A stretch of 25,233 nt of DNA from a virus. Made by a program: the position numbers and the translations under genes. Of the stretch, positions 290-25,233 are shown piece by piece (position 1 is the first letter of the stretch; the number at the start of each line of letters is the position of its first letter). The DNA lies in IMG/VR virus record IMGVR_UViG_3300043256_000309, positions 1-25,233 of that record; one strand, 5' to 3'. Under the pieces are notes generated by a model. It was given only the letters and a program-made list of their open reading frames with translations, had not been told where the DNA came from and searched no databases.

Positions 290-643
290 ATGAAGTTTGA
301 AAATCCAGAAAGAATAACAGAAGCCAATATTCAGGCTGAATTTTACCATCAGTGTAGACTGAAGGGTGTAGAGTGTTACTTAGAGTATAAGCATGAACAG
401 TCAAGGTTCGATGCAATAATTATAAAGAATAATGATGTGGTGCTCATTGTAGAGTTCAAGAGCTACAAAACGGATAAGAAAGGAAAAACCAAAACCAAGC
501 AACTTGATAAATATAGGCAATACGGTATTCCAGTATTACTAATAACACGAATGAATCAAATAGAACAGGTTATCGCCTCTCTTTCTTTTAAAATAGGCGT
601 AGCACCAATGCGTAGCTGTGCTCAATTAACACTAAGCTCATGA
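290..643 (+). CDS. small PD-(D/E)XK-type nuclease-like protein
   Basis: The 117-residue protein has the layout of a minimal PD-(D/E)XK nuclease core: a helix with Glu17 (AEFYHQ), Asp41 in RFDAII, the Glu55-x-Lys57 pair in VLIVEFKS, then a helix with QLDKYRQYG and a strand PVLLIT. This pattern is shared by VRR-NUC and Holliday-junction-resolvase-like domains. I chose ATG 290 because an AGGGA stretch lies about 10 bases upstream. A TTG start at 242 in the same frame would add 16 unconvincing residues. The stop overlaps the next start (ATGA at 640-643), so the gene is probably translated together with the CCA-adding enzyme. It could act on DNA or on RNA. Nuclease activity is inferred from the motif only. 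Confidence 0.6.
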   Translation: MKFENPERITEANIQAEFYHQCRLKGVECYLEYKHEQSRFDAIIIKNNDVVLIVEFKSYKTDKKGKTKTKQLDKYRQYGIPVLLITRMNQIEQVIASLSFKIGVAPMRSCAQLTLSS

Positions 644-1986
644 AAGAAGTAACACTACCAACTAAGCTCAGGGAAATAGCCAATAGTATTGCTAAATCTG
701 GCGGTGAAAGCTATCTGGTTGGTGGCGCAGTCATTGATATCCTTCAAGACAGAGAGCTAAAGGACTGGGATATTGAAGTATATAAGCTCAGCTTAGAACA
801 GTTACAGAGTATCTTATCAACCCATGGTAAGCCAAGCCTGGTAGGTAAATCTTTTGGCGTTATTAAGATACGCATCGATGAAATAGAGTATGATTTTAGT
901 ATCCCGAGAAAAGAAAACCGATCAGGAGTAGGGCATAAAGACTTTAATATTGAGCTGGTACCGTTTATTTCCCATAAAGAAGCTGCAGAAAGGCGCGACC
1001 TTACCATTAATTCGATGTTCTATAATCTTCTTGATGGTACATTTAAGGACCCATACAATGGGATGGCTGATCTTGAAGCCGGCGTACTCCGTCACGTATC
1101 AGATAAGTTTACCGAGGACCCACTAAGAGTACTTAGGATTATGCAGCTACTCCCAAGAAAAGGTAATAGAGTGGACGCAAAGACTATTGAGCTATGTAGA
1201 TCATTATCTCCAGAGTTTCCTTCACTGGTCAAGGAAAGAGTTTTTGAGGAGTGGAATAAGCTTATGAGATCACCAAAGCCTTCACGTGGACTATACTTTC
1301 TTGAGAAATGTGACTGGATTAAATGGTTTCCTGATCTTGATGCATTGCGTGAAACGGGTCAGAACCCTGAGCATCACCCAGAGGGGAGTGTGTGGACACA
1401 TACCTTAATGGTGGTTAATAATGCGGCTCAGTTAAGAAAAGATGTTCCAGAAGAGTGGCAACTGGCTTATATGTACGGGACACTATTGCATGACGTAGGT
1501 AAGCCATCCACGACACTGGAGGATTTTACAGCATATGGCCATGAAGATGTAGGAGAGGCTATTGCAGTTGAGTTTATGAGGAGGCTCACAGATGACAAGG
1601 ATTTAATAGAGAAGGTGGCTAGTATCGTTGGTAATCACATGCGCCCCTGGAATCTGACTTCTGGCGGCGGAAAGAAATCAGCGTGGAAGCGGTTACATAA
1701 TGACATTCCACTGAACATTATAGGCATGGTTTCAAAAGCTGATGGATCAGCAAGTAGGGGCCGGTCTTTAGGTGACTATCACAAGCCAAGCGAGAAGTGT
1801 TTTGAAGTATTCGAAGAGTTAGGAGCGATTGAAGATAAGATACCGCCAGTTCTTATGGGCAGGGACCTAATAGAGGCTGGAATAGAACCAGGACCACAAT
1901 TTAAGGAAATACTTGATCAAGCCTACAATATACAGATTGAGGAGGATATTATAGATAAAGAACTATTATTAAAAAGGGTACTATGA
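640..1986 (+). CDS. cca: CCA-adding tRNA nucleotidyltransferase with HD domain
   Basis: This is a class II tRNA nucleotidyltransferase/poly(A) polymerase family protein of 448 residues. The head domain has the LVGGA motif near residues 27-31, the two metal-binding Asp of DWD (42, 44), a third carboxylate near Asp85, the RRDLTINSM motif at 118-126 and the DP-N-G-DL/EDPLRVLR segment at 138-166. An HD phosphohydrolase domain follows, with His254, the His284-Asp285 pair in LLHDVGK and His301. Size and domain order match E. coli Cca, which adds CCA to tRNA 3' ends and whose HD domain has 2',3'-cyclic phosphodiesterase activity. The gene overlaps both neighbours by 4 bp, inside what looks like an RNA repair operon. 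The exact specificity (full CCA, A only or poly(A)) cannot be read from the sequence. Confidence 0.88.
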   Translation: MKEVTLPTKLREIANSIAKSGGESYLVGGAVIDILQDRELKDWDIEVYKLSLEQLQSILSTHGKPSLVGKSFGVIKIRIDEIEYDFSIPRKENRSGVGHKDFNIELVPFISHKEAAERRDLTINSMFYNLLDGTFKDPYNGMADLEAGVLRHVSDKFTEDPLRVLRIMQLLPRKGNRVDAKTIELCRSLSPEFPSLVKERVFEEWNKLMRSPKPSRGLYFLEKCDWIKWFPDLDALRETGQNPEHHPEGSVWTHTLMVVNNAAQLRKDVPEEWQLAYMYGTLLHDVGKPSTTLEDFTAYGHEDVGEAIAVEFMRRLTDDKDLIEKVASIVGNHMRPWNLTSGGGKKSAWKRLHNDIPLNIIGMVSKADGSASRGRSLGDYHKPSEKCFEVFEELGAIEDKIPPVLMGRDLIEAGIEPGPQFKEILDQAYNIQIEEDIIDKELLLKRVL

Positions 1987-3074
1987 AAGGAATGGATATA
2001 AATTACTTAGACGACAATAAATTAGTATTATTCGAAGCAGTCAGTGGGTCCAGAGCCTACGGTACCGCTACAGAGACCTCGGATACCGATACCCGTGGGG
2101 TATTCATTCTGCCACAGGATAATATACTGGGTATGCACTACACCGAACAGGTGAATAATACATCGAACGATACTATATTCTATGAGGCTAGGCGATTCCT
2201 GCAGCTCCTCAGTAAGAATAATCCCAATATTATGGAGCTTCTGTTTATGCCCAAAGATAGTGTGCTTAGGTCCCACCCTATTTATAATCTATTATTGGAG
2301 CACAGAGAGGAGTTCATTACTAAGCAGTGTGCTAAGACTTTTGGAGGGTATGCAATAGCTCAAATCAAGAAGGCTAGGGGGATGAATAAGAAGATTGTGA
2401 ATCCTATAGCCAAAGAGAGAAAGACACCATTAGATTTTTGTTATATGATAATGGAGGATGGGTACTCAGTCATGCCACTAAATGATTGGCTAAAAACAAC
2501 AGGTTTTGATCAGATGAATTGCGGACTAGCCAATATACCGCACATGAGAGATATGTATTCTATATTCCATGATGATTCAAATCCTAGTTCATTCAGGGGT
2601 ATTGTCTCTGAGGATGACGGTAATGAACTACGCCTAAGCTCTATTCCGGAGGGACGTACCTGCTTTGGCTCTATGAACTACAATAAAGACGGCTACTCAA
2701 AGTACTGTAAGGATTATAAACTGTATTGGGACTGGGTAGAGAAGCGTAATCCTGCAAGATACAATGATACCGTAGAGCATGGCAAGGGGTATGATGGGAA
2801 GAACCTAGGGCATTGTCACCGGTTACTAGATATGGCCATTGAAATTGGTAGTGGTCAGGGAGTTAATGTTCGTAGGCCCAACAGGGAGGAGTTACTAAGT
2901 ATCCGAAGGGGTGAGTATGATTATGACGAGCTGATCAAGGACGCAGAAGAGAAGCTAAAGAAACTGAATACTGTATTTGATAATTGTAACCTACCAAAAG
3001 ATGTAGACAGCGACATGGTAGATAAGCTACTAATAGAGATGCGACACGAATTTCACCTTAACCACGGACAATGA
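1983..3074 (+). CDS. RlaP-type RNA-repair nucleotidyltransferase (COG3541-like)
   Basis: The 363-residue protein begins with a DNA polymerase beta-type nucleotidyltransferase core: the G-S helix GSRAYGT at residues 22-28 followed by the metal-binding Asp pair in SDTDTRGV (Asp34 and Asp36). A long alpha-helical region follows, containing the segment FGGYAIAQIKKA. I recognise this as the phage/bacterial predicted nucleotidyltransferase family called RlaP, which comparative genomics places in RNA repair operons with RNA ligases and Thg1-like proteins. Its chemistry is not well established. It overlaps the upstream and downstream genes by ATGA at both ends, so the four proteins are likely made in similar amounts. 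The family call is fairly firm and the RNA substrate is inferred. Confidence 0.78.
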   Translation: MKGMDINYLDDNKLVLFEAVSGSRAYGTATETSDTDTRGVFILPQDNILGMHYTEQVNNTSNDTIFYEARRFLQLLSKNNPNIMELLFMPKDSVLRSHPIYNLLLEHREEFITKQCAKTFGGYAIAQIKKARGMNKKIVNPIAKERKTPLDFCYMIMEDGYSVMPLNDWLKTTGFDQMNCGLANIPHMRDMYSIFHDDSNPSSFRGIVSEDDGNELRLSSIPEGRTCFGSMNYNKDGYSKYCKDYKLYWDWVEKRNPARYNDTVEHGKGYDGKNLGHCHRLLDMAIEIGSGQGVNVRRPNREELLSIRRGEYDYDELIKDAEEKLKKLNTVFDNCNLPKDVDSDMVDKLLIEMRHEFHLNHGQ

Positions 3075-3808
3075 AAGACGCAATAGGAGACAGAATGAAG
3101 GCGAATTACGAGAACAGAACTCGTATTTATTTACCAAGAAGAAGCTTTACCATCATCCGAATAGATGGTAAAGCATTTCATACCTACACAAGAGGCATGG
3201 AAACTCCATTTGATGATGGACTTATAGAAGACATGGACCTTACGGCGGCCTATCTGTGCCAGAATATAATGGGTGCTAAGTTTGCCTTTGTTCAATCAGA
3301 TGAGATATCTATATTACTTACAGATTTTGAGGAAATAGGGACCCAGAGCTGGTTCGACAGTAATATCCAAAAGATGTGTAGCGTATCAGCCTCACAGGCA
3401 ACAGTTGGTTTTAATTCGGCAAGATTAAAACGAACAGGAGAAGCAGATATGAAATGGGCCGAGTTTGATAGTCGCGTATTCCAGATACCTCAAAAAGCAG
3501 AGGTTGAGAATTACTTCATCTGGAGACAGCAGGACACTACCCGGAATTCAATATCATCGGTAGCGCAGTCTCTATACAGCCATAAGGAGCTGAATGGAGT
3601 AAAAACAGATCAGCAGCAAGAAATGATATTTCAAAAAGGCATTAACTGGAATGATTACCCAGCCAAATACAAGAGGGGGCGAATGATTGAAAGACAGACC
3701 TATGAAAAGGCTCCTGAAGTAATGAGATCAAGATGGGTAAGTATTGAGGTGCCTGTATTTACTCAAGAAAGGGAGTTTCTGGCTGAACGAATACCTAATA
3801 ATCAATAG
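3071..3808 (+). CDS. Thg1-like 3'-5' RNA polymerase (tRNAHis guanylyltransferase family)
   Basis: The 245-residue protein shows the Thg1 signature: RIDGKAFHTYTRG at residues 30-42, with metal-binding Asp32, and FVQSDEIS at 73-80, with Asp77 and Glu78. FDSRVFQIP (132-140) and YFIWRQQD (148-155) follow. Family members add nucleotides to RNA 5' ends in the 3'-to-5' direction. The eukaryotic HINNLYN element that goes with tRNAHis specificity is replaced here by a segment around TTRNSISSVAQ. That resembles Thg1-like proteins of bacteria and archaea, which repair truncated tRNA 5' ends. It overlaps the RlaP-type gene by 4 bp and ends the recognisable repair cassette. Catalytic residues look intact and length is normal. 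Confidence 0.88.
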   Translation: MKDAIGDRMKANYENRTRIYLPRRSFTIIRIDGKAFHTYTRGMETPFDDGLIEDMDLTAAYLCQNIMGAKFAFVQSDEISILLTDFEEIGTQSWFDSNIQKMCSVSASQATVGFNSARLKRTGEADMKWAEFDSRVFQIPQKAEVENYFIWRQQDTTRNSISSVAQSLYSHKELNGVKTDQQQEMIFQKGINWNDYPAKYKRGRMIERQTYEKAPEVMRSRWVSIEVPVFTQEREFLAERIPNNQ

Positions 3809-12855: not shown

Positions 12856-13155
12856 CTAACTAAATTCAAAATATTCATTTTCCTTGATGATTGTAGTGGT
12901 AAACGGAAACTTTTCCTTAGGAACCTTTTGAATTGTTTCCATTAGAACCGTTGCACCTGTAAAAACTACATGATTCATATCCCCTATAGATATCTGAAGA
13001 TAAAGACATTTACCATTACCATCAGTATATTTTGAATCTTTAATTCGATAGTCATTAACCACTACCTCCCTATTCAATATTCGATCAATCTTTATCTTAT
13101 CGCCAATCAAACCCTTTATAGAAGGCTTTATACCTAAGTCACTAAACTTGTCCAT
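12856..13155 (-). CDS. small beta-rich protein, possibly OB-fold (99 aa)
   Basis: After a short N-terminus the protein consists mainly of alternating strands: GDKIKIDRILNREVVVNDYR, CLYLQISIGDMNHVVFTG and PFTTTIIKEN. This pattern occurs in small uncharacterised proteins of phage replication modules and is compatible with an OB-type barrel. It overlaps the reverse transcriptase gene by 14 bp and abuts the J-domain gene. It does not look like the four-helix Avd accessory protein of DGRs. Function is unknown. Confidence 0.6.
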   Translation of the reverse strand: MDKFSDLGIKPSIKGLIGDKIKIDRILNREVVVNDYRIKDSKYTDGNGKCLYLQISIGDMNHVVFTGATVLMETIQKVPKEKFPFTTTIIKENEYFEFS

Positions 13156-14101
13156 GTAACAATTTCTTTAATAAATGTTTGCTATCACAGTGTACGGCCC
13201 ATCCAAAATAAGAAGCGATAGACGCCCTATTTCTTCTCTTCGCCAACATTCTGGCAAAATTCTGTTTAATGCTTTTCCTTAGTCCAACATGGGTATGGTA
13301 AAAACAATATCCTACAAAATCAATACCTCTCGATGCAACCGGGAATACTTGATAATTCCCTTTCACTGTTAATTTTAGTTCGACATCCAAATATTCCCTT
13401 ATTTCGCTCAATAATCCATGTAAATAAGTCTTTGACCCTGATAATATTACAAGATCATCCGTGTATCGAAAATAATACCTCACTCCCTTAACTTCCTTCA
13501 ACCAATGATCAAAATACGTTAGATAGAAATTAGCAAAATATTGACTCAAATAATTACCAATAGGTAGGCCATTTGTACTATCAATAATTTCATCAAGCAA
13601 CCAGAGAAGATCTCTATCCTTAATCTTTCTTCGAAGCAAAACTTTCAATATCTCATGATCTACGCTTGGATAGAACTTTTTCACATCCAATTTTAGACAA
13701 TATTTTGTTTCAGGAATATCTTTCAAGGCGCTCTTAACACCATAAGCTGCTGCATGGATCCCTCGATCTTTTATGCAGCTGTAGGTATCGGCAGTAAATA
13801 CAGATAAAAATATAGGCTCTAAAATATTCATTATTGCATGGTGTACTATTCTATCAGGAAAATAAGGCAAGCTATATACTTTTCGCTCTTTAGGTTCATG
13901 AATTATAAAAGTCTTATACTCCGAAGTTTTGTAAGTTTTAGTTTTAAGAATCTCATGCAATAATGTAATATTCGATTCCCTATTCTTGTTATGCATCTGT
14001 ACGCCATATTGAGAAGCCTTACCCTTCTGTGCCTTTTTATCAGCCAGTTGCAAGTTCTCAATATTGCATATTTTCTCGTACAGATTATTTAATCGTTTCA
14101 T
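13142..14101 (-). CDS. diversity-generating retroelement reverse transcriptase
   Basis: The 319-residue protein is a compact reverse transcriptase: RT motif around KVYSLPYFPDRIVHHAIMN (74-92), catalytic Asp139 in LKLDVKKFYPSVDH, GLPIGNYLSQYFANFYL (178-194), the active-site YTDD at 213-216 in FRYTDDLVIL, and GIDFVGYCF (259-267) before a basic C-terminal thumb. The IGN-SQ motif and the HTH-x-x-LRKSIK segment are typical of DGR enzymes. There is no maturase or endonuclease domain, which argues against a group II intron. It lies directly downstream of a template repeat and three variable genes. It would copy template RNA with errors at adenines and replace the variable repeats. Confidence 0.93.
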   Translation of the reverse strand: MKRLNNLYEKICNIENLQLADKKAQKGKASQYGVQMHNKNRESNITLLHEILKTKTYKTSEYKTFIIHEPKERKVYSLPYFPDRIVHHAIMNILEPIFLSVFTADTYSCIKDRGIHAAAYGVKSALKDIPETKYCLKLDVKKFYPSVDHEILKVLLRRKIKDRDLLWLLDEIIDSTNGLPIGNYLSQYFANFYLTYFDHWLKEVKGVRYYFRYTDDLVILSGSKTYLHGLLSEIREYLDVELKLTVKGNYQVFPVASRGIDFVGYCFYHTHVGLRKSIKQNFARMLAKRRNRASIASYFGWAVHCDSKHLLKKLLHGQV

Positions 14102-14110
14102 AAGCCTTTG

Positions 14111-14184
14111 CTTTGAAGGTCATTTTCTCAAAGTGATACCAATACCCTTTAAATTAAAAACGTGATTTTTTGCTATGTGAGCAA
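14111..14184 (-). other. template-to-RT spacer with two small hairpins
   Basis: Between template repeat and reverse transcriptase, CTTTGA (14111-14116) pairs with TCAAAG (14128-14133), and TTGCT (14170-14174) pairs with AGCAA (14180-14184). In studied DGRs the spacer next to the template is part of the structured RNA needed for priming cDNA synthesis. These stems are short and the role here is inferred. Confidence 0.35.
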
Positions 14185-14216
14185 GGTCTGTGCTGCATAA
14201 TAATATTTGCATAGAT

Positions 14217-14286
14217 GGGAACTGACGTTCGTATTCGTGTTCGTGTAATCGTAGTTCGTGTTAGAAAACTCGAAGCCTGAAGGAAC
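14217..14286 (-). repeat. DGR template repeat (TR)
   Basis: The 70-bp segment matches VR1 over its full length and VR2 and VR3 over 64 bp. It lies outside any gene, between the first target gene and the reverse transcriptase. Read on the coding strand it is rich in AAC, AAT, TAC and ACG codons, the usual template design, which gives broad residue choice at substituted adenines without creating stops. It holds 20 coding-strand adenines. Eighteen differ in at least one variable repeat, and no other base does. Weaker similarity continues to about 14209 with changes at non-adenine positions, as expected for IMH versus IMH*. Confidence 0.95.
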
Positions 14287-14316
14287 TACAGCACTCACAA
14301 CACACAACCTGGTTAA

Positions 14317-14697
14317 TTATTTCAACATTAAATAATACTCTTTATAAAGCTTCTTAAATTGCTTTCCCGCATATTTCGCAATTTCGCTAGACTTATAGCA
14401 AAAGCGGGAACCGACGCTCGCATACGTGTCCGCGCAATCGTAGCCCGTGTCAGAAAACCCGAAGCCCGAAGGAACCTTATCGCTAGCCTTTATGTCGAAC
14501 CAAGGATAGTATTTATACTCATTCCAATCGTTCCAGTTTGGCTCCCAGCCATCATTTAACGACTCAGCTATAATTACCAGTTGATAATGAGCCAATAACG
14601 CCTTTTGATGCTTTTCTGGCATAGCTGAAAAATCAGGCAATGCAGCATCAATACCAAGTGCTTTACACGCACCTTTAAATGTTTTGATCTTATTCAT
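14317..14697 (-). CDS. DGR target protein 1 (126 aa)
   Basis: This short paralogue of the next two genes lacks their first about 45 residues and begins at the equivalent of KTFxxAC. It has a conserved block DGWEPNWNDWNEYKYYPWF (49-67), the variable segment at residues 75-97, then VGSRFCYKSSEIAKYAGKQF at 95-114 and a basic helix. The C-terminal variable segment ending in a G-x-R-strand recalls the C-type-lectin-like fold of other DGR targets, but the fold is not proven. There is no signal peptide or membrane segment. It is closest to the template. Its product should differ between phage lineages at about ten surface positions. Confidence 0.9.
   Translation of the reverse strand: MNKIKTFKGACKALGIDAALPDFSAMPEKHQKALLAHYQLVIIAESLNDGWEPNWNDWNEYKYYPWFDIKASDKVPSGFGFSDTGYDCADTYASVGSRFCYKSSEIAKYAGKQFKKLYKEYYLMLK
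14406..14475 (-). repeat. DGR variable repeat 1 (VR1)
   Basis: Ungapped alignment to the template over 70 bp shows 12 substitutions, all at template coding-strand adenines (11 A to G, 1 A to T). It is the only variable repeat that keeps the template's last six bases (plus-strand AGGAAC), so it has the longest homology. It encodes residues 75-97 of target 1. Confidence 0.94.
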
Positions 14698-14702
14698 GTT
14701 AT

Positions 14703-15170
14703 TTATTTTGTAATAGTTAGGTAATCCTTGTAAATATCTTCGAACTGCTTACCGGCATACTCGGCCAACTCCCGTGTTTTGAAGCAAAGGCGGGAACCGA
14801 CGCTCGTAATCGTGTACGTGCAAACGTAGTCCGAGTGAGAAAACCCGAAGCCCGACTTAAATTTAAACCAAGAATAATACTTGTACTCACTACTGTTTTT
14901 CCAATCAGGTTGCCATCCTTCGTTAAGCACTTCTATTATGGTCTTCAGTTTTTTGTAAGCAGCCTCATCCTCTGTATCATAATCGGACAATATACTGCTT
15001 ACCGAAATTCCCTTTATTGAACAGGCATCTTCAAAGGTTTTTACTCTCTCTGTTATATCCTCGATAAGCTCCTGCTTACCAAATAGATTTTCAAGTAATT
15101 TTCTTCCCTTAGTATTAGCGCTTTTATAAGCCTTAATAGCATTCTCTTTTGTAATTTCTAGTGTCTTCAT
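14703..15170 (-). CDS. DGR target protein 2 (155 aa)
   Basis: This target has the N-terminal element LEITKENAIKAY and LLENLFGKQ (residues 4-33), shared with target 3, then KTFEDAC (44-50), GWQPDWKNSSEYKYYSWF (85-102), the variable segment at about 106-126 and VGSRLCFKTRELAEYAGKQF (124-143). It lies 5 bases upstream of target 1 in the same transcript. The conserved N-terminus may anchor or assemble the protein and the C-terminal variable face may bind a ligand. This is inferred from other DGRs. No virion motif is visible. Confidence 0.9.
   Translation of the reverse strand: MKTLEITKENAIKAYKSANTKGRKLLENLFGKQELIEDITERVKTFEDACSIKGISVSSILSDYDTEDEAAYKKLKTIIEVLNEGWQPDWKNSSEYKYYSWFKFKSGFGFSHSDYVCTYTITSVGSRLCFKTRELAEYAGKQFEDIYKDYLTITK
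14792..14855 (-). repeat. DGR variable repeat 2 (VR2)
   Basis: Sixty-four aligned bases with 11 substitutions relative to the template, all at template coding-strand adenines (6 A to G, 4 A to T, 1 A to C). Similarity stops at 14855, earlier than for VR1. It encodes about residues 106-126 of target 2. Confidence 0.94.
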
Positions 15171-15180
15171 AACTATTGAA

Positions 15181-15651
15181 TTATTTGATTAAATATTCCT
15201 TGTAAATCTCCTCAAATTGTTTACCAGCGTACTCTGCTAGTTCTTCGCTTTTAAAACAAAGGCGGGAACCGACGATCGTACTCGCGCGCGTGTAACCGTA
15301 GCCCGTGAAAGAAAACCCGAAGCCTGATTTCACCTGAAACCATGGATACCATTTTCTCTCATTACTATTCTCCCAATCGGGCTCCCAACCACCATTCAGT
15401 GCTCTAATAATTATAATTAGCTTCTGATACGCCTCGACAGATTTCCTATCTTCTGAAGTTAATCCGCTTTCGTAATCACTCTTTTTCAGATCAAGCAACG
15501 AACAGGCATCCTTAACTGTTTTTACGGATTCCATTACATTTTTAACAAAAGCTTGCTTCCCAAATAGATTTTCGAGAAGAACTTTTTCAGGCTTGCTTCC
15601 TTTATTATACGCTGCCAAGGCGTTTTCTTTGCTAATTTCTAGTGTTTCCAT
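15181..15651 (-). CDS. DGR target protein 3 (156 aa)
   Basis: This is the most upstream of the three paralogues and has the same plan: LEISKENALAAY and LLENLFGKQ (4-33), KTVKDAC (44-50), GGWEPDWENSNERKWYPWF (87-105), the variable segment at about 109-129 and VGSRLCFKSEELAEYAGKQF (127-146). Its variable residues differ strongly from those of the other two targets, including Phe, Arg and Ile where the template encodes Asn. It sits 10 bases upstream of target 2, so one message probably carries all three targets, the template and the reverse transcriptase. Confidence 0.9.
   Translation of the reverse strand: METLEISKENALAAYNKGSKPEKVLLENLFGKQAFVKNVMESVKTVKDACSLLDLKKSDYESGLTSEDRKSVEAYQKLIIIIRALNGGWEPDWENSNERKWYPWFQVKSGFGFSFTGYGYTRASTIVGSRLCFKSEELAEYAGKQFEEIYKEYLIK
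15264..15327 (-). repeat. DGR variable repeat 3 (VR3)
   Basis: Sixty-four aligned bases with 12 substitutions relative to the template, all at template coding-strand adenines (8 A to G, 3 A to T, 1 A to C). It shares with VR1 and VR2 the substitutions at template offsets 7 and 54, which may be fixed differences. Confidence 0.94.
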
Positions 15652-15931: not shown

Positions 15932-16570
15932 TTAAAAATATTTGTTTATAAACCAATTTGCCTCTCCATTGAAGTATCCCCGGTCCTTAAATGGAATATC
16001 CTCAAAGGATTTATACTTATAGGTTCTGTGCTCATTAATTTTATTTTCCATGATATTATTAGTAATAGCAACATCATATATCCCAAAACTATGTAGTATA
16101 CCTAGTAGATATTGTGGATCACCTACCATCTTATCGAAATCTATCACCTCTCCACCCGACTGAATGAACTCATCGAATATCATTAAAGACTTCCTAAGCT
16201 TTCCATAGTAGTGATCTTTTAGCTGGCCATTAAATAACTCATACCAACTCAGGAATGTATGCCTGGGATTCCTGAGTATTATAGCCTTACGCTTAACGTT
16301 CAGGATATGCATACCACAGCGAAGTCTCGCATTAACCTCTCCGTAGTAGTCGCCACGACTATCTAAGTCCTCCTGAACCCTATTTAAGTCGTAGTGAACT
16401 GGGGTGTAGTGAGTTTTTGACTTAAGAGCATCCTTCCATGCCTTTTTAGATTCCTCGCTATCAGTAAGCCCTTCATGCCCTACAGTCCACCTGTTTGATC
16501 GATTCATTACTGATGACAGGAACTTTGTTCCGGATCCACCTAAAGCTGTTATAAGAAAGTTTTCGTTCAT
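15932..16570 (-). CDS. sulfotransferase-like P-loop protein (212 aa)
   Basis: The N-terminus FLITALGGSGTKFLSSVM (residues 5-22) has the strand-loop-helix of the sulfotransferase 5'-phosphosulfate-binding loop. RKAIILRNPRHTFLSWYELF near residues 95-115 resembles the second, 3'-phosphate-binding region with its Arg and Ser. The C-terminus is helical and aromatic. Such enzymes move sulfate from PAPS to sugars or other acceptors. I chose ATG 16570; a TTG at 16582 overlaps the upstream stop. The acceptor and the link to replication genes are unknown. A non-catalytic P-loop protein is possible. Confidence 0.58.
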   Translation of the reverse strand: MNENFLITALGGSGTKFLSSVMNRSNRWTVGHEGLTDSEESKKAWKDALKSKTHYTPVHYDLNRVQEDLDSRGDYYGEVNARLRCGMHILNVKRKAIILRNPRHTFLSWYELFNGQLKDHYYGKLRKSLMIFDEFIQSGGEVIDFDKMVGDPQYLLGILHSFGIYDVAITNNIMENKINEHRTYKYKSFEDIPFKDRGYFNGEANWFINKYF

Positions 16571-16578
16571 AATTTTAA

Positions 16579-18390
16579 TCAAAAAGGCATATCTGTCTCT
16601 GTCTTTTGCCTGGGATTCATATTATCGAACACGATGTATCCAGCGTTATTAGTTAACATTTCAAATAATATCGGGTGATCCATGTGTGTGGGCCTGCCTC
16701 CGGTTTCAGTCTCTTTAACCTTTCGTATATGGACCTCCATAATCCTGTACTTCTCACTATCCTGTACTTTACGATGCAGGGTTATGAAGTCATCAGCTCT
16801 GTTAGAGAACTTGCCTCCGCCTTCTGTATCAGCTTTCTGTGGAGCTGCTGGATTACCATCATGATCCTTCTGGCGTAGTGCATAAGTCACAGCATGGCAA
16901 CTTAGCCATATTCCACAGTACTTCTTGGAAAACTGCCTAAATTCGTTTGTAGCCTTGTAGTGGTAATCATGAGTGGACTGCCGATTAAACTCACCCATAT
17001 CAACGTCTAATGAGTTGTATGGGTCGATAAAAAAGCCCTGATACTCCGACTCTTCACATAACTTCTCTCCTATAACTAGTAGTTGCTTGTAGGTGTAAAT
17101 CTCGTAATTATTCAGAATGGTGAAGTGTTTTTTTATGAACTTCTTAGCCTCTGCCAGCTCCTCGGGTTTCATCTCCTGTACCTTCTTTACTGCGAAGAAC
17201 TCCAGAAGCTTTACATACACGAAGCCTACCCGGTTCTCTGCCGCGTATATGATCCACCGCCAGTTGTGTAGTTTTGCTGACATTATAGCAAGAAACCAGA
17301 TGAAAACCGATTTACCTACATTATCATGTCCGTTACAGATTATGAAGTTATTGAGTTTGAATACAAAATGTTTGTCCAGTTCCTCGAATCCAGTCTTTAA
17401 TCCCATTTCAAGGTCTCCTGACCTGACCTTCTCCACGTAGCCTTCTAATTCCTCGTCTGAGGCTATAGGGTTTTCGGGGACCTCTACCTCCTTTGGAGTA
17501 GGAGCTGATGTCGGTGATACCGATGGCAGGGGTGAACGATTCATTCCTCCTTCTGATCCGAATCCCAATCCTTTTAGTTTCTTAGCTGTGAGTTTCAGGT
17601 CCCCATCACACTCCAGTATGGCGAATACATTGGCTGGCTTGTATGCTTTCAGTGATTCAAAGGCCGTGGAAGTGGAAAACACGGTGAACCAATTCTTACT
17701 ACGAGTGTAGTCAGCACTCCACAAAGAATCTGTGTCTCCAGGTCGTTTTAAGAGCACCTTATCGCCGTTATCCTTCTTAATGACCCATCCATACCCCTGT
17801 AACAGTTTAAGCACGTCTCCGCGCTCGTTATAGGCCTCAAAACAGTTTTCTGAGTAATGCACCTTCTCCTCAACTTCGTTAAAGCTCATTGCTTGGCTGA
17901 TTAAGTGGTTTCTCTCGTCAGCTGTTAGTGTAGGTATTTCGCTTAGGTCCCTATCAAGCTCATATCCAGGAGTGGGTGCTATGGCGATATATCCACCTTC
18001 TCCTCTAGTCTCAATGATTGCCTCACCAGTTTCCTTGCTCTTGGCCAGCTTCTTATTGCCGGCTATATTGGGTGCTCGGTAAATCAGGTGGTATCCGCCG
18101 TTCTTGGTTTTTTGCGCTACTAACCTATCGCCTATTTCCATATCAATAGTCTCCATGTACCGCTCCATAATACTTCCGGACGGATCGTGTTTAACATCAA
18201 TATCAATTACCTCCAGGTTGCCGTTCACTTTGCCACACACTAGGCCGACACCTTTGGCGGCGTAGAAGTTGTTGCCAGGCTCAATAACCTCGCTCATATT
18301 CTCCTTCCAGGAACCCAATGGTACCTTACTTGCCCCGATAGGAATGACGCTCAGGCCCATTTGATAATATTTTAGTGCTGCTTCTTTCAA
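16579..18390 (-). CDS. PrimPol-helicase fusion, replicative primase/helicase
   Basis: Residues about 1-165 form an archaeo-eukaryotic primase/polymerase domain of the bifunctional prim-pol family, with Asp63 and Asp65 in VIDIDV and His101 in GGYHLIYR. A linker domain follows. The C-terminal RecA-like helicase has Walker A GHDNVGKS at 354-361, Walker B FFIDPYNS at 453-460 (Asp456) and GIWLSCHA at 493-500. It should unwind DNA and make primers or short DNA at the phage fork. The last residues, TETDMPF, resemble an SSB C-terminal tip. It overlaps the upstream replication gene by 4 bp. Confidence 0.85.
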   Translation of the reverse strand: MKEAALKYYQMGLSVIPIGASKVPLGSWKENMSEVIEPGNNFYAAKGVGLVCGKVNGNLEVIDIDVKHDPSGSIMERYMETIDMEIGDRLVAQKTKNGGYHLIYRAPNIAGNKKLAKSKETGEAIIETRGEGGYIAIAPTPGYELDRDLSEIPTLTADERNHLISQAMSFNEVEEKVHYSENCFEAYNERGDVLKLLQGYGWVIKKDNGDKVLLKRPGDTDSLWSADYTRSKNWFTVFSTSTAFESLKAYKPANVFAILECDGDLKLTAKKLKGLGFGSEGGMNRSPLPSVSPTSAPTPKEVEVPENPIASDEELEGYVEKVRSGDLEMGLKTGFEELDKHFVFKLNNFIICNGHDNVGKSVFIWFLAIMSAKLHNWRWIIYAAENRVGFVYVKLLEFFAVKKVQEMKPEELAEAKKFIKKHFTILNNYEIYTYKQLLVIGEKLCEESEYQGFFIDPYNSLDVDMGEFNRQSTHDYHYKATNEFRQFSKKYCGIWLSCHAVTYALRQKDHDGNPAAPQKADTEGGGKFSNRADDFITLHRKVQDSEKYRIMEVHIRKVKETETGGRPTHMDHPILFEMLTNNAGYIVFDNMNPRQKTETDMPF

Positions 18391-19444: not shown

Positions 19445-22400
19445 TTAATCTTCTAATTGCCTGAAATTAGAGTCTCCTCCTGCTTTACTCTTGTTTATCT
19501 TAAGCTGCCTAAATCCTGGGGTTTTCGTTTTCTTCTTTTTGTCATTACTATAGACATTAACCCCTCCGCCAAAGAAAGCATAGAACATGAGTAATCCATC
19601 CAAAGCGGTAGGGTCATCTTCTAAAAGCTCCTCTATCGTATCCCAATAAATAGGATGTAGATTTTCCTTTAGTTCATCTAAAAACACATACTCTTCACCA
19701 AACTTAGTAACGCGCATGCCATCTTTACGTACATGGGTATCTAGATATTTGTCAAGCATGTGAGTTGGTGGAGAGAGCTTATTGGTTCCCATGTCTATGA
19801 GCAGACCCTTTCTTGTTGAGGCTTGAAATGGAGTGCCTAGAGGGACTACTTTTCCGCTTCCTTTTAAAATGGATTCAATTAAGAACCTAGCTTGCAGAAC
19901 AACCTGCTGTATTCTACCGCCCCAAGGATCAATTCTCCTGTTTCCGATCTTTATTTTTGCGAAATCACTGCTTGTTGGATCCATCTCAACACCCGTTTCT
20001 GGGTCCCCATCATTATTATAATGAACTGCCGCCAGGGTAACCAGAGATGTCGTGAGCCCTACAAACTTTGAAAAATCTGTAAGTGCTATTTTTTGAGCCA
20101 CTGAAGGCTTCCACGGTTCCGCTCCTGCCCTCATCTTGCCAAAATGATAGAAAGCATAAGGCGTTGATGTTTTAATTACCGATGCCCAATTCCTGGGTGA
20201 AAAGAACACTCTACTTAATCCTTCTTTTATGCCCTCTACGGATAACCCAAACAACTCTAACGAGGCTCTGCCGGTCATAGTATTGATAGCATCAGCCAAG
20301 TCCTTATAGGCTTGCGGGTCGTCCTTGAATTCAATTCCTTTTATCTCTAGCATTTCCTTACCATCCAAGAATCGTAAAACCCTTATAGTGTCCAGATAAC
20401 CAACTGCTGCCCTTTCAACCGCTTTAAGTGGCGATGCGGCTTTCCATTTTTCAAAAGCGTTTTTATTGTTCAGTAATTTAAGAGGGCTACCAATGGTTGC
20501 CCAAATCATATTTGCCCAATCACTGACAAATAACTCCTCCCTTGCACTTATTTTTGCATTAACCTCTGTAAGTGCTAATTTAGACTCTTTTAGTTCTGGA
20601 TACCATTCTTGGGCTTTTATTTTATTTAACCATTTTTCTTGCCTCGTTTCACTACCAAAATGACTTAATGCATTCTTGAAAGATTTTACAGCATGTCTTG
20701 GATTTGCGATAGTTGGAATCAAGCCCTGTATGAGAACAAACGAAAACTCCCCAGTTGCCCTCAGTCCCCTCAATAATCCCCATGCATCTCCTATGCCGTC
20801 TTTTATTTTTTGCTTTAATGACCTATCTTCTAATTCTTTTTTATAGAACTCTTTATCATACTTCTCCCGCACTGCGATCTTCTGAGCTTTTAAATCAGTT
20901 AGCTCTGAATCTGAAATTATTGGTTTAGGCTTAGGTTTTGGTGCGAAGTTCTTTTCCTTAATTCGCTCCTGTAGTTCATCGATAGCTTTTTTGGTGCGAA
21001 TCTTGGCTTGCTCTAACCTTTTTATCTCAGGTATTCCCGCCTCTTTACGCAATTCTAGCAACTCCTTTTTTAATACCTCGCTTCGTTCTTTCAGGGCCTT
21101 TAATTCCGGAGTCTGTGGGATCTTTTTACCGGGAGGTGTTTCAAGTTCTTTCTCTATTATCTTGCGCTCAAGATTAGCAATACTCCTCTCTTCTCCTTTG
21201 ATAGCCAGATCTATTCTCTGCTCATCTGTTAATTCAGACTTACCCTCCAGATCCTCAACTGCTTTTCTAAGCCTATCACGCTCTTCCTTCAGCTCTTTGG
21301 CCTCAAGGTCAAGTTTAACAACTTTCTTCTCTGGGGGCTTCTCTCCTGTATCCAGTCTTCGCTGCAGGTCCTCGATATTGTTTTTTAATCGAGACTTTAT
21401 ACCATCAAGTGCTGTTTTCCACTCCCTGGCTACCTCAGCCGGCTCTATAGGTAAGTCTTTAAGAAGCTCTCTTAACTCCTTTTGCATAGCACGTTCTTCT
21501 GATCCTGGCTTATCTCGCTGTAATCCACTTCTTAAAGGGCGCCTTTTATTCTGAGCATCCTCAATCCCTGAAATCAACTTACCCATTCGCTTCATCTTCC
21601 GAATAGATGTCTCAAGCTGACCCTTGTTTAAAGATGTTATATTTCCGTATCCGGTAATAGCATCCCGAACCTCTCTTTCGGTAATACCCGGGAAGCCTTC
21701 TTTTAACTCTTTATGGACCGCTACAGTAAGGTCCTCGATATTCTTAATGTTCTGCTCAACGACGATTCTTTTAATTAGGCTAGTAGGTATCTTTATCTTC
21801 CCTGGCGTAGTCTCCCTGGCACCAGAAAGCTCTTTCGCCAGACCGGTCCTGTGCTTTTTAAAATCTACCTTACCCTTAAAATTGTCTTTTAGATACTCCT
21901 CAACCTTCAGTAGTACATTCTCGCTCGTTGCTAGTCCTTTAGTAATAAGGCCTTTCCCTATTTTAGCCAGAGCTGATACTACCTCAGGCCTTACTTCACC
22001 AACAGCAAACTGTACTATCCCAAGAGCTTTTGCCAGATCTTCAGTTCCCTCGGCAATTAAGTTGTCCCCTTTTTTCTGCTGGGATTTAATGTTTTTCTTC
22101 CTAGATTTCTTCTCTCGCTCAATCTCGTTTTCTATTCCCTTAAATGCTGTATTTTTTTCGTTCTCCCTTAGCTTCGTTTCAGCATCTACTAGCTTCTTAT
22201 TGATCTCCTTAAGCTCCTTATCATATTCCCTGAACTTAGCCTCTACTTCTGCAGGGATAACACCCTTGTTTAGGTCCTTATACTTATTGATTTGAACATC
22301 TACTGCATAATGAAAGTCAGCACCCTCATAAACATTAGGTAAGTTGGACAAGAATCTTCCTGCAGAACGCGCACTCTTATCAAATTCTTTTATTATTTCT

Positions 22401-25233
22401 GCCTGTTGCTTCTCTAGCTCTTCTGCTTTAGCAGGATCTTTCTCTGCCGCAGCTTTTTTTCCTAGTCCATCGATCATCTCTGACCATATATATGCAGCTG
22501 CCCCACCCTCAACCTGATTGTTTTTCACCGCCTCCAAGGCAGCCTTTTCACCTATATCCTCAATCAATCTTTCGGCTGCTGCCTTCGCCTCCGCAACGGT
22601 CTCTACCCTATACTCTAGCCCTGTTTCTTCTATTGAAGATTTAATAACCTCGCTTTTCGTTCCTTTATGGGCCCTGGTAAGTAGTCTCTTCTCTCCAGTA
22701 GGAATAACAAGGGGTTCGGTTACCGTAGAAATGTCCTCCTGCTCTTCTGCTTCTTCCTTGATCTCCTCCTTAATTTCCTCAACCGCTTCTTTCTTTTCTT
22801 CAAACTTTGAATCCTTAATCAACTGATCACTAAACTCATCAAAATGCTTCTTTTCTAGCCTAGACTTTAGCTGCTTAAATAACTCTTCTAAAAATGCCTC
22901 CGCACTATTAATATAGTCTTTCCCTTCAGATACACCCAGATCAAACAATCCATCGGCAAGCTTTTTAACTGCCTCAAACGCTTTTGGTTTAGTTAGTGGA
23001 TTAGGAGCGTCAACAGCTGCCTTGGCCCCAATAATAGTTGCAATGTCATCTAATCCCTCAGCGATCTTTGCTTTTCCGGATTCCCTTAGCTTCTCGGTCT
23101 CTAATTCTGTCTGCTTCTTTTTGAATTCTTCAGATACAGGCTTGAACTCTTTAACTAACGTATCATGCAGTTCAGCGTCAGTTTTCTTGAGTTCAGCGAA
23201 CTTTTTACCTATTCCAGACTCTTTTGGAGTAGTAGTACCTTCACTTATTCCTTTGATATCTTCACGTATCTCAGCTTCTACGGTGGACACAGGAGGCTTT
23301 TCTTCCTTCTTTGGTGGCGTAGTATCCTTTTTAGCTTTGGGCGCCTCTAACGGCAACCCTCCTCTATCAGCTTCTACTTTAAGCGCTGCCTGGTGAGCCT
23401 CATCGAAACTCTTGCCCTTATTGATCTCCTCGGACATAATCTCCATATGCTCCTCGGTGGTAGTTTCCTTCAGTTCTTTATGGAATGGAGCTTTGGAATG
23501 CTCGACTAGTTTACCGCGTGTAATTTCTGTTTTTTTGAAGTCTGTTTTGTCGATTGCGTCTTCAACACGCTTTGCCTCAACTCCTGCAAGCCCTTCAGTA
23601 CCTTCCCCTTGTTCTTTGATTTGCTCATCAATTTTAGTTTTTAAGGATTCAATTTGTTTTTCGTTCATTCCCTCGATAATCAACTCCTCAAATTCCGGCT
23701 TCTCTTTTATTGCCTTGCCAAGTTTTTTGAAGTCAATTGTTCCATCCTCGTTCTTTACTGCTTCTATAAAAGCATCCACCTCTTTATTGGCCTCAATAAC
23801 CTCATCAGAAGTCTCTTCTATAGGTAGTTCTTTTTTTACCTCTGCTTTACCGGTAAACTCTTTTAACTCCATTCGAAAGGTCTGGGCGTCTATTCCTTTA
23901 CCAACGCGGACCTCAGCGTATCCCTGCTCTACAAAAGTGTCCATGATCTCAATGAAGTCTCGGGCTGTTTTGGTATCCTTGCCTTCTTCGATGTTTTTAA
24001 TGGCCTGCTCAATCTCAGCCTTTTTCATACCGATACCCATTATAGTCTCCGTGGCAGTTTTTCCCAGCTCTATCGCATCCTTTACAAAGGTTTGGGTTTG
24101 TTCTGATCGATCAGTGAGTGGGGTGAATTCTCCTAGTTCCGCTCTTGGCCTACCTAAACTCTTTCCATTTGTTTTAATGTCTAGTTTGTCGGTACCGGTA
24201 ACCGTATGTCCTAGTTCAGAGGATAGGTCTATGATCTGTTGACGGGTCTGTAGATCATTTGCTCTCTCAGTAGTGGTTTTGGCGTTAAACCGCTGCTTGA
24301 GGTCAAGTAATTTATTGGTTTTATCGAACACCTCAGTAGGTTTCTCTTCTTTTATCTCTACTTCCTCTTTAGCAGCCTTGATTTCCTCTAAAGCTTCAGT
24401 CTTAAACACATCAATCAACTCCTTATTAAGTCTTGATTTTTCTTCTAATAATGATTCCTTTTTAGCCGTCTTTACCGGGTCACTAATATGAGGGTTTTCA
24501 TCTATTGCTTTTATGTCCGCCTCGACCTTCTCAATAGCCTTTGATATAGGTTCTGCTTTTTTAATCTGCGGGTCATTCTTGGCAACGGTTTCGTTAATCT
24601 GGTCCTTATAGAACTTTTTCTCCTGCGGATTCATCTCTGGATCCTTCTCTATTACTTCGTGGTATCTCGCTGGATCACGGGTGACGTCTTCTGATATAGC
24701 TTTAATATCTGCTAGATTATCCACTGCGTCTGCTTGAGTTCTCAGTCCTTCTTTCTCCTTATTATCCTCTGACTTATTCGCTTTTTCCCGAAGGTCCGCA
24801 GACCTGTCACGCATTGACTCCAGCGACTCTTTAGTATTGGTTGCTACCAACTTTGCTTTAGGAGATGCTGTTGCGTAATTACCAAAAGCTCTGCCGAATA
24901 GTGCATTAGGAAGACCCGGCAAGCCGAGAGCACCACCAAGAACCACGGAACGCCTAACTTCGTCAGGATTGATTTCACCCTCAGTAAGTAACTGCTCTAC
25001 AGCAGTAAGTCCTCCAAATCCACTTGCATTTACCCCAACTCCTGTGCCCCAGGAAGCAACGCCGCTTTCAGTAGCTTTTTTTACGGCCTGAGCTGCCTTT
25101 CCAGCGCCATGACCTAACATAGATAACATCGCTCCTTCTTTGGCGCCATGCCCCATCGCAGCAAACGACTCCAGCACTTTTGTCTGTCCTGCTACGTTTT
25201 GGTCCGTTAACTCTCCATAAGTTTTCAGAAATC
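19445..25233 (-). CDS. giant polyvalent phage protein, C-terminal 1928 codons (partial at right edge)
   Basis: The frame stays open through the right edge. A GTG at 25177 is internal, because in-frame residues such as YGELTDQNVAG precede it. The first about 120 residues are Gly/Ala-rich (AAMGHGAKEG, GVGVNASGFGG). A very long Lys/Glu-rich helical and coiled-coil region follows. A module beginning AEG-x-D-A-x-x-G occurs twice, at 23075-22805 and 22065-21830. The last about 450 residues form a globular domain with LIPTIANPRHAVKSF, SPRNWASVI and RRIDPWGGRIQQVV, like the large polyvalent protein domains of giant phage proteins. Such proteins are thought to be packaged and injected. No nuclease, protease or helicase motif is visible in this part. 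Confidence 0.75.
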   Translation of the reverse strand, partial: FLKTYGELTDQNVAGQTKVLESFAAMGHGAKEGAMLSMLGHGAGKAAQAVKKATESGVASWGTGVGVNASGFGGLTAVEQLLTEGEINPDEVRRSVVLGGALGLPGLPNALFGRAFGNYATASPKAKLVATNTKESLESMRDRSADLREKANKSEDNKEKEGLRTQADAVDNLADIKAISEDVTRDPARYHEVIEKDPEMNPQEKKFYKDQINETVAKNDPQIKKAEPISKAIEKVEADIKAIDENPHISDPVKTAKKESLLEEKSRLNKELIDVFKTEALEEIKAAKEEVEIKEEKPTEVFDKTNKLLDLKQRFNAKTTTERANDLQTRQQIIDLSSELGHTVTGTDKLDIKTNGKSLGRPRAELGEFTPLTDRSEQTQTFVKDAIELGKTATETIMGIGMKKAEIEQAIKNIEEGKDTKTARDFIEIMDTFVEQGYAEVRVGKGIDAQTFRMELKEFTGKAEVKKELPIEETSDEVIEANKEVDAFIEAVKNEDGTIDFKKLGKAIKEKPEFEELIIEGMNEKQIESLKTKIDEQIKEQGEGTEGLAGVEAKRVEDAIDKTDFKKTEITRGKLVEHSKAPFHKELKETTTEEHMEIMSEEINKGKSFDEAHQAALKVEADRGGLPLEAPKAKKDTTPPKKEEKPPVSTVEAEIREDIKGISEGTTTPKESGIGKKFAELKKTDAELHDTLVKEFKPVSEEFKKKQTELETEKLRESGKAKIAEGLDDIATIIGAKAAVDAPNPLTKPKAFEAVKKLADGLFDLGVSEGKDYINSAEAFLEELFKQLKSRLEKKHFDEFSDQLIKDSKFEEKKEAVEEIKEEIKEEAEEQEDISTVTEPLVIPTGEKRLLTRAHKGTKSEVIKSSIEETGLEYRVETVAEAKAAAERLIEDIGEKAALEAVKNNQVEGGAAAYIWSEMIDGLGKKAAAEKDPAKAEELEKQQAEIIKEFDKSARSAGRFLSNLPNVYEGADFHYAVDVQINKYKDLNKGVIPAEVEAKFREYDKELKEINKKLVDAETKLRENEKNTAFKGIENEIEREKKSRKKNIKSQQKKGDNLIAEGTEDLAKALGIVQFAVGEVRPEVVSALAKIGKGLITKGLATSENVLLKVEEYLKDNFKGKVDFKKHRTGLAKELSGARETTPGKIKIPTSLIKRIVVEQNIKNIEDLTVAVHKELKEGFPGITEREVRDAITGYGNITSLNKGQLETSIRKMKRMGKLISGIEDAQNKRRPLRSGLQRDKPGSEERAMQKELRELLKDLPIEPAEVAREWKTALDGIKSRLKNNIEDLQRRLDTGEKPPEKKVVKLDLEAKELKEERDRLRKAVEDLEGKSELTDEQRIDLAIKGEERSIANLERKIIEKELETPPGKKIPQTPELKALKERSEVLKKELLELRKEAGIPEIKRLEQAKIRTKKAIDELQERIKEKNFAPKPKPKPIISDSELTDLKAQKIAVREKYDKEFYKKELEDRSLKQKIKDGIGDAWGLLRGLRATGEFSFVLIQGLIPTIANPRHAVKSFKNALSHFGSETRQEKWLNKIKAQEWYPELKESKLALTEVNAKISAREELFVSDWANMIWATIGSPLKLLNNKNAFEKWKAASPLKAVERAAVGYLDTIRVLRFLDGKEMLEIKGIEFKDDPQAYKDLADAINTMTGRASLELFGLSVEGIKEGLSRVFFSPRNWASVIKTSTPYAFYHFGKMRAGAEPWKPSVAQKIALTDFSKFVGLTTSLVTLAAVHYNNDGDPETGVEMDPTSSDFAKIKIGNRRIDPWGGRIQQVVLQARFLIESILKGSGKVVPLGTPFQASTRKGLLIDMGTNKLSPPTHMLDKYLDTHVRKDGMRVTKFGEEYVFLDELKENLHPIYWDTIEELLEDDPTALDGLLMFYAFFGGGVNVYSNDKKKKTKTPGFRQLKINKSKAGGDSNFRQLED

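Follow-up and report, generated by a model that had tools for sequence, protein, structure and literature searches.

The IMG/VR virus record IMGVR_UViG_3300043256_000309 (25,233 bases, which may be a fragment; analysed whole and called the window below) carries on its minus strand an element that its sequence identifies as a diversity-generating retroelement (DGR). Read along this coding strand, the cassette consists of three target genes (targets 3, 2 and 1), a template repeat (TR), a spacer RNA, a reverse transcriptase (RT) gene and a gene for a 99-residue protein, the RT partner (Table 1). It is thus longer than in the first-pass annotation, which placed the element at 13142-15651: the spacer RNA and the partner gene are added, down to position 12856. 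That annotation, made from the sequence alone, had called the DGR complete, and this is borne out. The RT is of the DGR type, the variable repeats (VRs) differ from the TR by substitutions at TR adenines only and lie inside open reading frames (ORFs), and the 3' borders of TR and VRs (IMH* and IMH, for initiation of mutagenic homing) differ. We are highly confident that this is the DGR of a tailed phage, with the RT presumably rewriting the three targets at adenines, and the predicted element is very likely functional. The host is probably a member of the Bacteroidota, since the genome-borne relatives of the window RT are mostly from this group.

Table 1. Features of the DGR cassette in the window
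Feature	Positions	Strand	Remarks
Target protein 3, 156 aa, phrog_11581	15181-15651	-	carries VR3
VR3, in target 3	15264-15327	-	core 15274-15309; 12 substitutions, all on TR A
Target protein 2, 155 aa, phrog_11581	14703-15170	-	carries VR2; AlphaFold2 models
VR2, in target 2	14792-14855	-	core 14802-14837; 11 substitutions, all on TR A
Target protein 1, 126 aa, phrog_11581	14317-14697	-	carries VR1
VR1, in target 1	14406-14475	-	core 14416-14451; 12 substitutions, all on TR A
TR	14217-14286	-	non-coding, between target 1 and RT; 12-codon core NTNYDYTNTNTN at 14227-14262
TR 3' border, IMH*-like	14216-14226	-	TR GTCAGTTCCCA, VRs GTCGGTTCCCG
Conserved spacer RNA	14106-14190	-	hairpin I 14171-14183; helix II 14142-14148 with 14117-14123; helix III 14134-14136 with 14128-14130; GGUA/GAA internal loop
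DGR RT, 319 aa, YTDD, IGNYLSQ	13142-14101	-	intact ORF
99-aa protein (phrog_19665), candidate DGR accessory protein	12856-13155	-	overlaps RT end by 14 bp

TR positions 14217-14280 align without gaps to VR1 (offset +189), VR2 (+575) and VR3 (+1047). All 35 substitutions fall on the 20 adenines of the TR, 18 of which vary in at least one copy, and no other base changes across 64 bp in three VRs; the chance of all substitutions falling on A is about 3e-22. These counts agree base for base with those first reported. The match to the TR extends to 14286 (14475 in the VR) only for VR1; VR2 and VR3 end at the equivalent of 14280. Most of the variation (27 substitutions, with a chance of 1.6e-11 for this part alone) lies in a hypermutated core of 36 bp with 17 adenines, which could encode about 1.2e10 protein variants per target. 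The variation was described as strictly adenine-specific, and this stands for all 35 changes; however, eight of them are border differences. Mutagenesis as the source of all 35 was rejected for the border positions, most of which are fixed or nearly so across related elements.

The RT is open and intact, as previously claimed, and matches the phage RT family phrog_1423 (3e-119). Its best match in the PDB is 8ub7 ('Reverse transcriptase', E = 6.6e-44), which we take to be the BPP-1 DGR RT complex; the group II intron RT (1.8e-18) and retron-type RTs (about 1e-18) come far below. The motif IGNYLSQ conforms to the IGxxxSQ of DGRs, where group II introns have QGxxxSP. A phylogeny had been proposed as a check: in a maximum-likelihood tree, from which retrons were left out and which places long rows, BPP-1 among them, with uncertainty, the window RT groups with BPP-1 and other DGR RTs, and group II introns split off at 100/100. 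Membership among group II intron or retron RTs is thus not found, by the tree for the former and by PDB scores for the latter. PADLOC gave only generic RT matches for the RT and none for the targets or the 99-aa partner.

Scanning IMG/VR produced 80 loci at 64-77% RT identity. About 70 IMG/VR loci carry a TR some 180 bp ahead of the RT and one to four VRs near -190, -600 and -1050 from the TR, and the same cassette is also present in Bacteroidota genomes. Further VRs lie far from their TR, two of them about 40 kb away in the L003 record (L158, 54.5-57.5 kb, in two further target genes) and one more in the L051 record, which indicates that targets are used in trans. In the 113 VRs of 54 loci compared across this clade, the core adenines (-36 to -2, counted from the codon for V in VGSR) appear as A in 39%, G in 30%, T in 19% and C in 12% of cases; the window VRs retain A in 24 of 51.

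Adenines at the repeat borders

The eight border changes within the aligned repeats fall at 14278 (TCA>TCG, silent, in two of three VRs), 14270 (GAG>GGG) and 14223 (GTCAGT>GTCGGT), the last two in all three VRs. A further one, 14216 (CCCA>CCCG, also in all three), lies just beyond the interval considered in the first-pass annotation. Over the clade, the counterparts of 14278, 14223 and 14216 are invariant or almost so, whereas that of 14270 is fixed in the window only. At the border adenines -52, -51, -45, +3 and +10, clade VRs have G in 323 of 331 cells and A in 4, and the A of the TR at +14 is T in 65 of 74 VRs. Genome loci not used before present the same pattern (+3, 40/41; +10, 38/39; +14, 27/30), as do the borders of tail-type DGRs (+10, 14/14; +14, 12/12). 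Our segment finder permits no mismatches other than those on A within a segment, which introduces a bias at the 5' border; the 3' border is not forced, since segments are free to stop short of position 0.

Is selection on the encoded protein enough to explain these borders? It is possible, if not quite probable, that ordinary mutagenesis followed by selection for Gly and Arg is all that lies behind TR adenines with a G in the VR: +3 and +10 belong to the codons of the Gly and Arg that are invariant in VGSR, and one position within the VR of tail-type DGRs is likewise A in the TR and G in the VR (11/11). However, protein selection alone is insufficient because silent changes are fixed as well (TCA>TCG, and CTA>CTT at +14). 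Moreover, a G in the TR border would waste fewer cDNAs, yet most TRs keep A.

In the BPP-1 IMH, five mismatches determine the direction of transfer (PMC3240598). The borders of the window clade look like this directional device, built from adenines, whereas in BPP-1 most of the TR/VR 3' differences sit on other template bases (C>A, T>C, A>T, C>G, C>A). The 3' borders differ in sequence as in other DGRs, and their directional function is a prediction. We suggest that the error-prone RT may itself convert template-type ends into target-type ends, which would be the reason why A is kept in TR borders.

Spacer RNA and RT partner

The 85 nucleotides ahead of the RT start are conserved, with an AGACC-TGCC...GGCAAAAAA hairpin followed by helix II, the GGUA/GAA internal loop and helix III. 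RNAalifold recovered the structure that we had drawn, minus one pair, and 10 of 12 pairs have changed on both sides. Paired cells amount to 91.1% (71.8% after shuffling) and the covariation score is 0.554, versus 0.185 for shuffled alignments and at most 0.133 for slid controls. In nearly every related DGR, those of crAss-like phages and some Firmicutes (45-50% RT identity) among them, the derived covariance model (R1) matches just 5' of the RT, and one archaeal virus has a weak match. The model has no match in BPP-1, a difference from the window clade, or in group II introns, and an Rfam search of the window gave zero matches. The stretch separating TR from RT in BPP-1 forms a folded RNA to which RT-Avd is recruited (PMC12875486); by analogy, the window RNA would play the same RT-recruiting role.

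Avd (PF22296) was not found in 46 records, the window and 45 related ones, with the BPP-1 record matching at 2e-37 as a positive control. About a quarter of DGRs have no avd (PMC7290462). A homologue of the 99-aa protein follows the RT in 49 of 53 related loci and, among the loci in Bacteroidota genomes, in most of those with small targets. Divergent homologues occur a few hundred bases past the RT in Bacteroidales tail-type DGRs, a homologue overlaps the RT in a Methanosarcinales virus, and in three DGRs (L128, L132 and BT-TP2, or L156) the homologue is fused to the RT C-terminus. Six matches to the protein turned up in 395 sampled Bacteroidota genomes; five adjoin a DGR RT, and the remaining one is weak. 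No homology to it could be recognised in the small ORFs that follow the RT in Versailles, LBR48 and cr55_1. Pfam and NCBIfam returned nothing useful for the 99-aa protein, and a PDB sequence search was empty. It is not Avd itself; by analogy, it probably acts in the place that Avd holds in BPP-1. PMC10053308 mentions a DGR-associated protein, taken from an earlier survey, that lacks a Pfam entry; this may be the same family, and we hence claim no novelty for the association with the RT.

On sequence grounds, the window element, like DGRs known from crAss-like phages (PMC7290462), is of the avd-less type with target-TR-RT order; it has a distinctive family of targets, its spacer RNA covaries and its RT partner is conserved. 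The crAss-like DGRs (crAssphage LMMB, cr52_1, cr55_1; 'lineage 3', CLec3) have the same target-TR-RT order, no avd and, as described for lineage 3, an SRLC/A border motif (PMC7290462). Their RTs are 49-59% identical to that of the window, and the spacer RNA was found in cr7_1, cr52_1 and cr55_1. They differ in having a large tail-protein target with a C-terminal VR, and the 99-aa partner was not detected there. The window RT lies near these DGRs, which PMC7290462 assigns to lineage 3/CLec3 (Wu et al. 2018); by this indirect route it may belong there too. In cr52_1 (L083), the reading frames of both the DGR target and the RT are interrupted by stops under code 11, which would fit stop-codon recoding. 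With the BPP-1 DGR of a Bordetella phage (mtd/avd/TR/brt), the window shares a homologous RT, a TR upstream of it, adenine-only VR substitutions and different 3' borders in TR and VR. It differs by its order (target, TR, spacer, RT, 99-aa gene), by the lack of a detected Avd and by its three small targets, where BPP-1 has one tail-protein target.

Small target proteins and their neighbourhood

The only PHROG match of the targets is phrog_11581, of unannotated function, and Pfam and NCBIfam returned nothing useful. Nearly all VRs of the clade lie in homologous small proteins with the pattern ...YPWF...SGFGFS[variable]VGSRLCFKTxELAEYAGKQFxxLYKxYL. In a first AlphaFold2 model of target 2 (pLDDT 87.9), the N-terminal part is helical and confident, the VR is of poor quality and helices follow at the C-terminus; a second one, from a tighter alignment, presents the VR as a beta hairpin (residues 112-123) at low confidence. 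In each target, the variable residues are predicted to lie in a beta hairpin, followed by a constant helical tail of about 25 residues. PDB searches with the two models, in which the VR is of low confidence, gave no significant fold and no C-type lectin; sequence searches of the targets gave no C-type-lectin match either, and BFVD matches of the target 2 model were uncharacterised phage proteins only. Other DGRs serve several VRs from one TR, such as those of Treponema denticola and the tentaclin phages (PMC10743442). The tentaclin targets contain C-type-lectin domains, for which the small window targets gave no match.

Sister DGRs in Bacteroidales prophages (L107, L115 and others) have RTs 57-64% identical to that of the window, the same spacer RNA and a divergent 99-aa partner nearby, but their target is a tail protein of about 440 aa (phrog_5302) in place of tandem small proteins. 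Profile comparison of the two target types aligned 28 columns, SGFGFS...VGSRLCF (E = 4.7e-7, probability 92.5). The variable hairpin and its GSRLCF border are common to both, whereas the remainder differs. A variable module of this kind, 28 residues long, can thus be housed in proteins that are unrelated outside it, a point of relevance to the way in which DGRs gain new targets. When target types are placed on the RT tree, five label changes are needed and the starred branches force at least two of them; as judged from this tree, target type has switched more than once. A single origin of the small targets with no later switch is unsupported by these counts. In two loci (L072, 7873-8751; L131, 6928-7788), two target genes are fused into a single ORF with two VRs.

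Are these small proteins displayed on the virion? Tail proteins are the most common viral DGR targets in several clades (PMC8144416), the sister DGRs of the same RT clade have large tail-protein targets, and the variable hairpin is homologous in the two target types. The window targets could then be receptor-binding proteins and their replication-gene neighbourhood an accident. We find this doubtful: the targets are 126-160 aa long and have no tail-protein body, and in the window as in three relatives (L003, L034 and L140) the cassette sits among genes for primase/helicase, DnaB, RecT, exonuclease and methyltransferase, not among tail genes. A target homologue in Bacteroides phage BI-TP1 (L154, 6001-6585), in a 12.6-kb stretch that lacks any RT annotation, also adjoins DNA methyltransferase and resolvase genes. 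Because DNA-metabolism genes surround the cassettes and this RT-less relative alike, an early intracellular role of the targets is plausible. Such small targets may already be counted among the unannotated clusters of large surveys (PMC8144416).

Turnover in relatives and proposed mechanism

Near-identical relatives of the same layout differ almost only in their VRs. Between L022 and L024, 12 of 13 differences in 6,861 bp are within VR1; between L022 and L023, all 13 differences in 5,995 bp are within VR3; and between L021 and L023, 11 of 12 differences in 4,705 bp are within VR2. All differences are within a VR in L068/L070 (6/6) and L050/L052 (3/3). Each pair alters a single VR, and over the five pairs 43 of 45 VR differences are on TR adenines, with a constant TR and nearly identical flanks. 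L021-L024 represent one phage population, so these are three events in one lineage and two in others. VR turnover is thus recent in these relatives, and single VRs change independently. In Dysgonomonas sp. PH5-45 (L139, 3625-5367), one cassette has two TRs and three VRs, apparently through partial duplication.

The first-pass suggestion that the system works or worked recently therefore holds for relatives, and for the window genome it is a prediction. Several points weigh against our reading of the window as an active, Avd-free DGR. The evidence for activity comes from relatives, no near-identical contig of the window phage being available; an Avd gene may lie elsewhere in the phage genome, of which the window covers a 25-kb fragment; and the minimum-free-energy fold of the spacer alone is no better than that of shuffles (z = -0.25), so that the case for its structure comes from covariation.

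The cassette could have been active in an ancestor and be silent now, its three VRs being fossils of earlier rounds. The lack of population data for the window phage and a core A retention somewhat above that of the clade would fit, but we regard this as improbable: every part of the cassette (RT, targets, TR, spacer, partner) is intact, the VRs have accumulated no non-A change, and relatives of the same layout are changing single VRs. Ordinary divergence of three tandem paralogues (the targets are indeed 45-56% identical) is refuted, as every difference to the untranslated repeat is on A and non-A core positions match the TR in 2218 of 2226 clade cells.

If retrohoming occurs in the window phage, an active DGR would work as follows. 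A transcript spanning TR and spacer would be bound by the RT through the folded spacer, probably with the 99-aa protein, and the TR copied with errors opposite adenines. The cDNA, guided by the constant borders, would then take the place of the corresponding 36-bp core in one or another of the three targets, each copy being rewritten independently of the others.

DGRs are known for varying phage tails and bacterial surface proteins, usually with Avd as a helper, and this large clade has no detectable Avd. A more speculative picture, unlikely to hold in all its parts, is that of an Avd-free branch in which the folded spacer RNA and the 99-aa partner (sometimes fused to the RT) do the work of Avd, border adenines let the RT make target-type ends and so protect the template, and small proteins encoded beside replication genes are diversified, perhaps against variable host factors inside the cell as their ligands. 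The conserved RNA and the conserved partner lend themselves to direct tests; should the targets function within the host cell, phages would be directing hypermutation at intracellular targets.

Elsewhere in the window, three overlapping plus-strand genes (640-3808) encode a tRNA nucleotidyltransferase (phrog_2244), a nucleotidyltransferase (phrog_388) and a tRNA-His guanylyltransferase (phrog_4717), possibly a phage tRNA repair operon. On the minus strand, a 1910-aa ORF with no PHROG match (19445-25177) reaches nearly to the contig end and may be cut off. A 216-aa protein (15932-16582, minus strand), with no Pfam or PHROG match, resembles by eye the P-loop start of sulfotransferases (GGSGTKFL).

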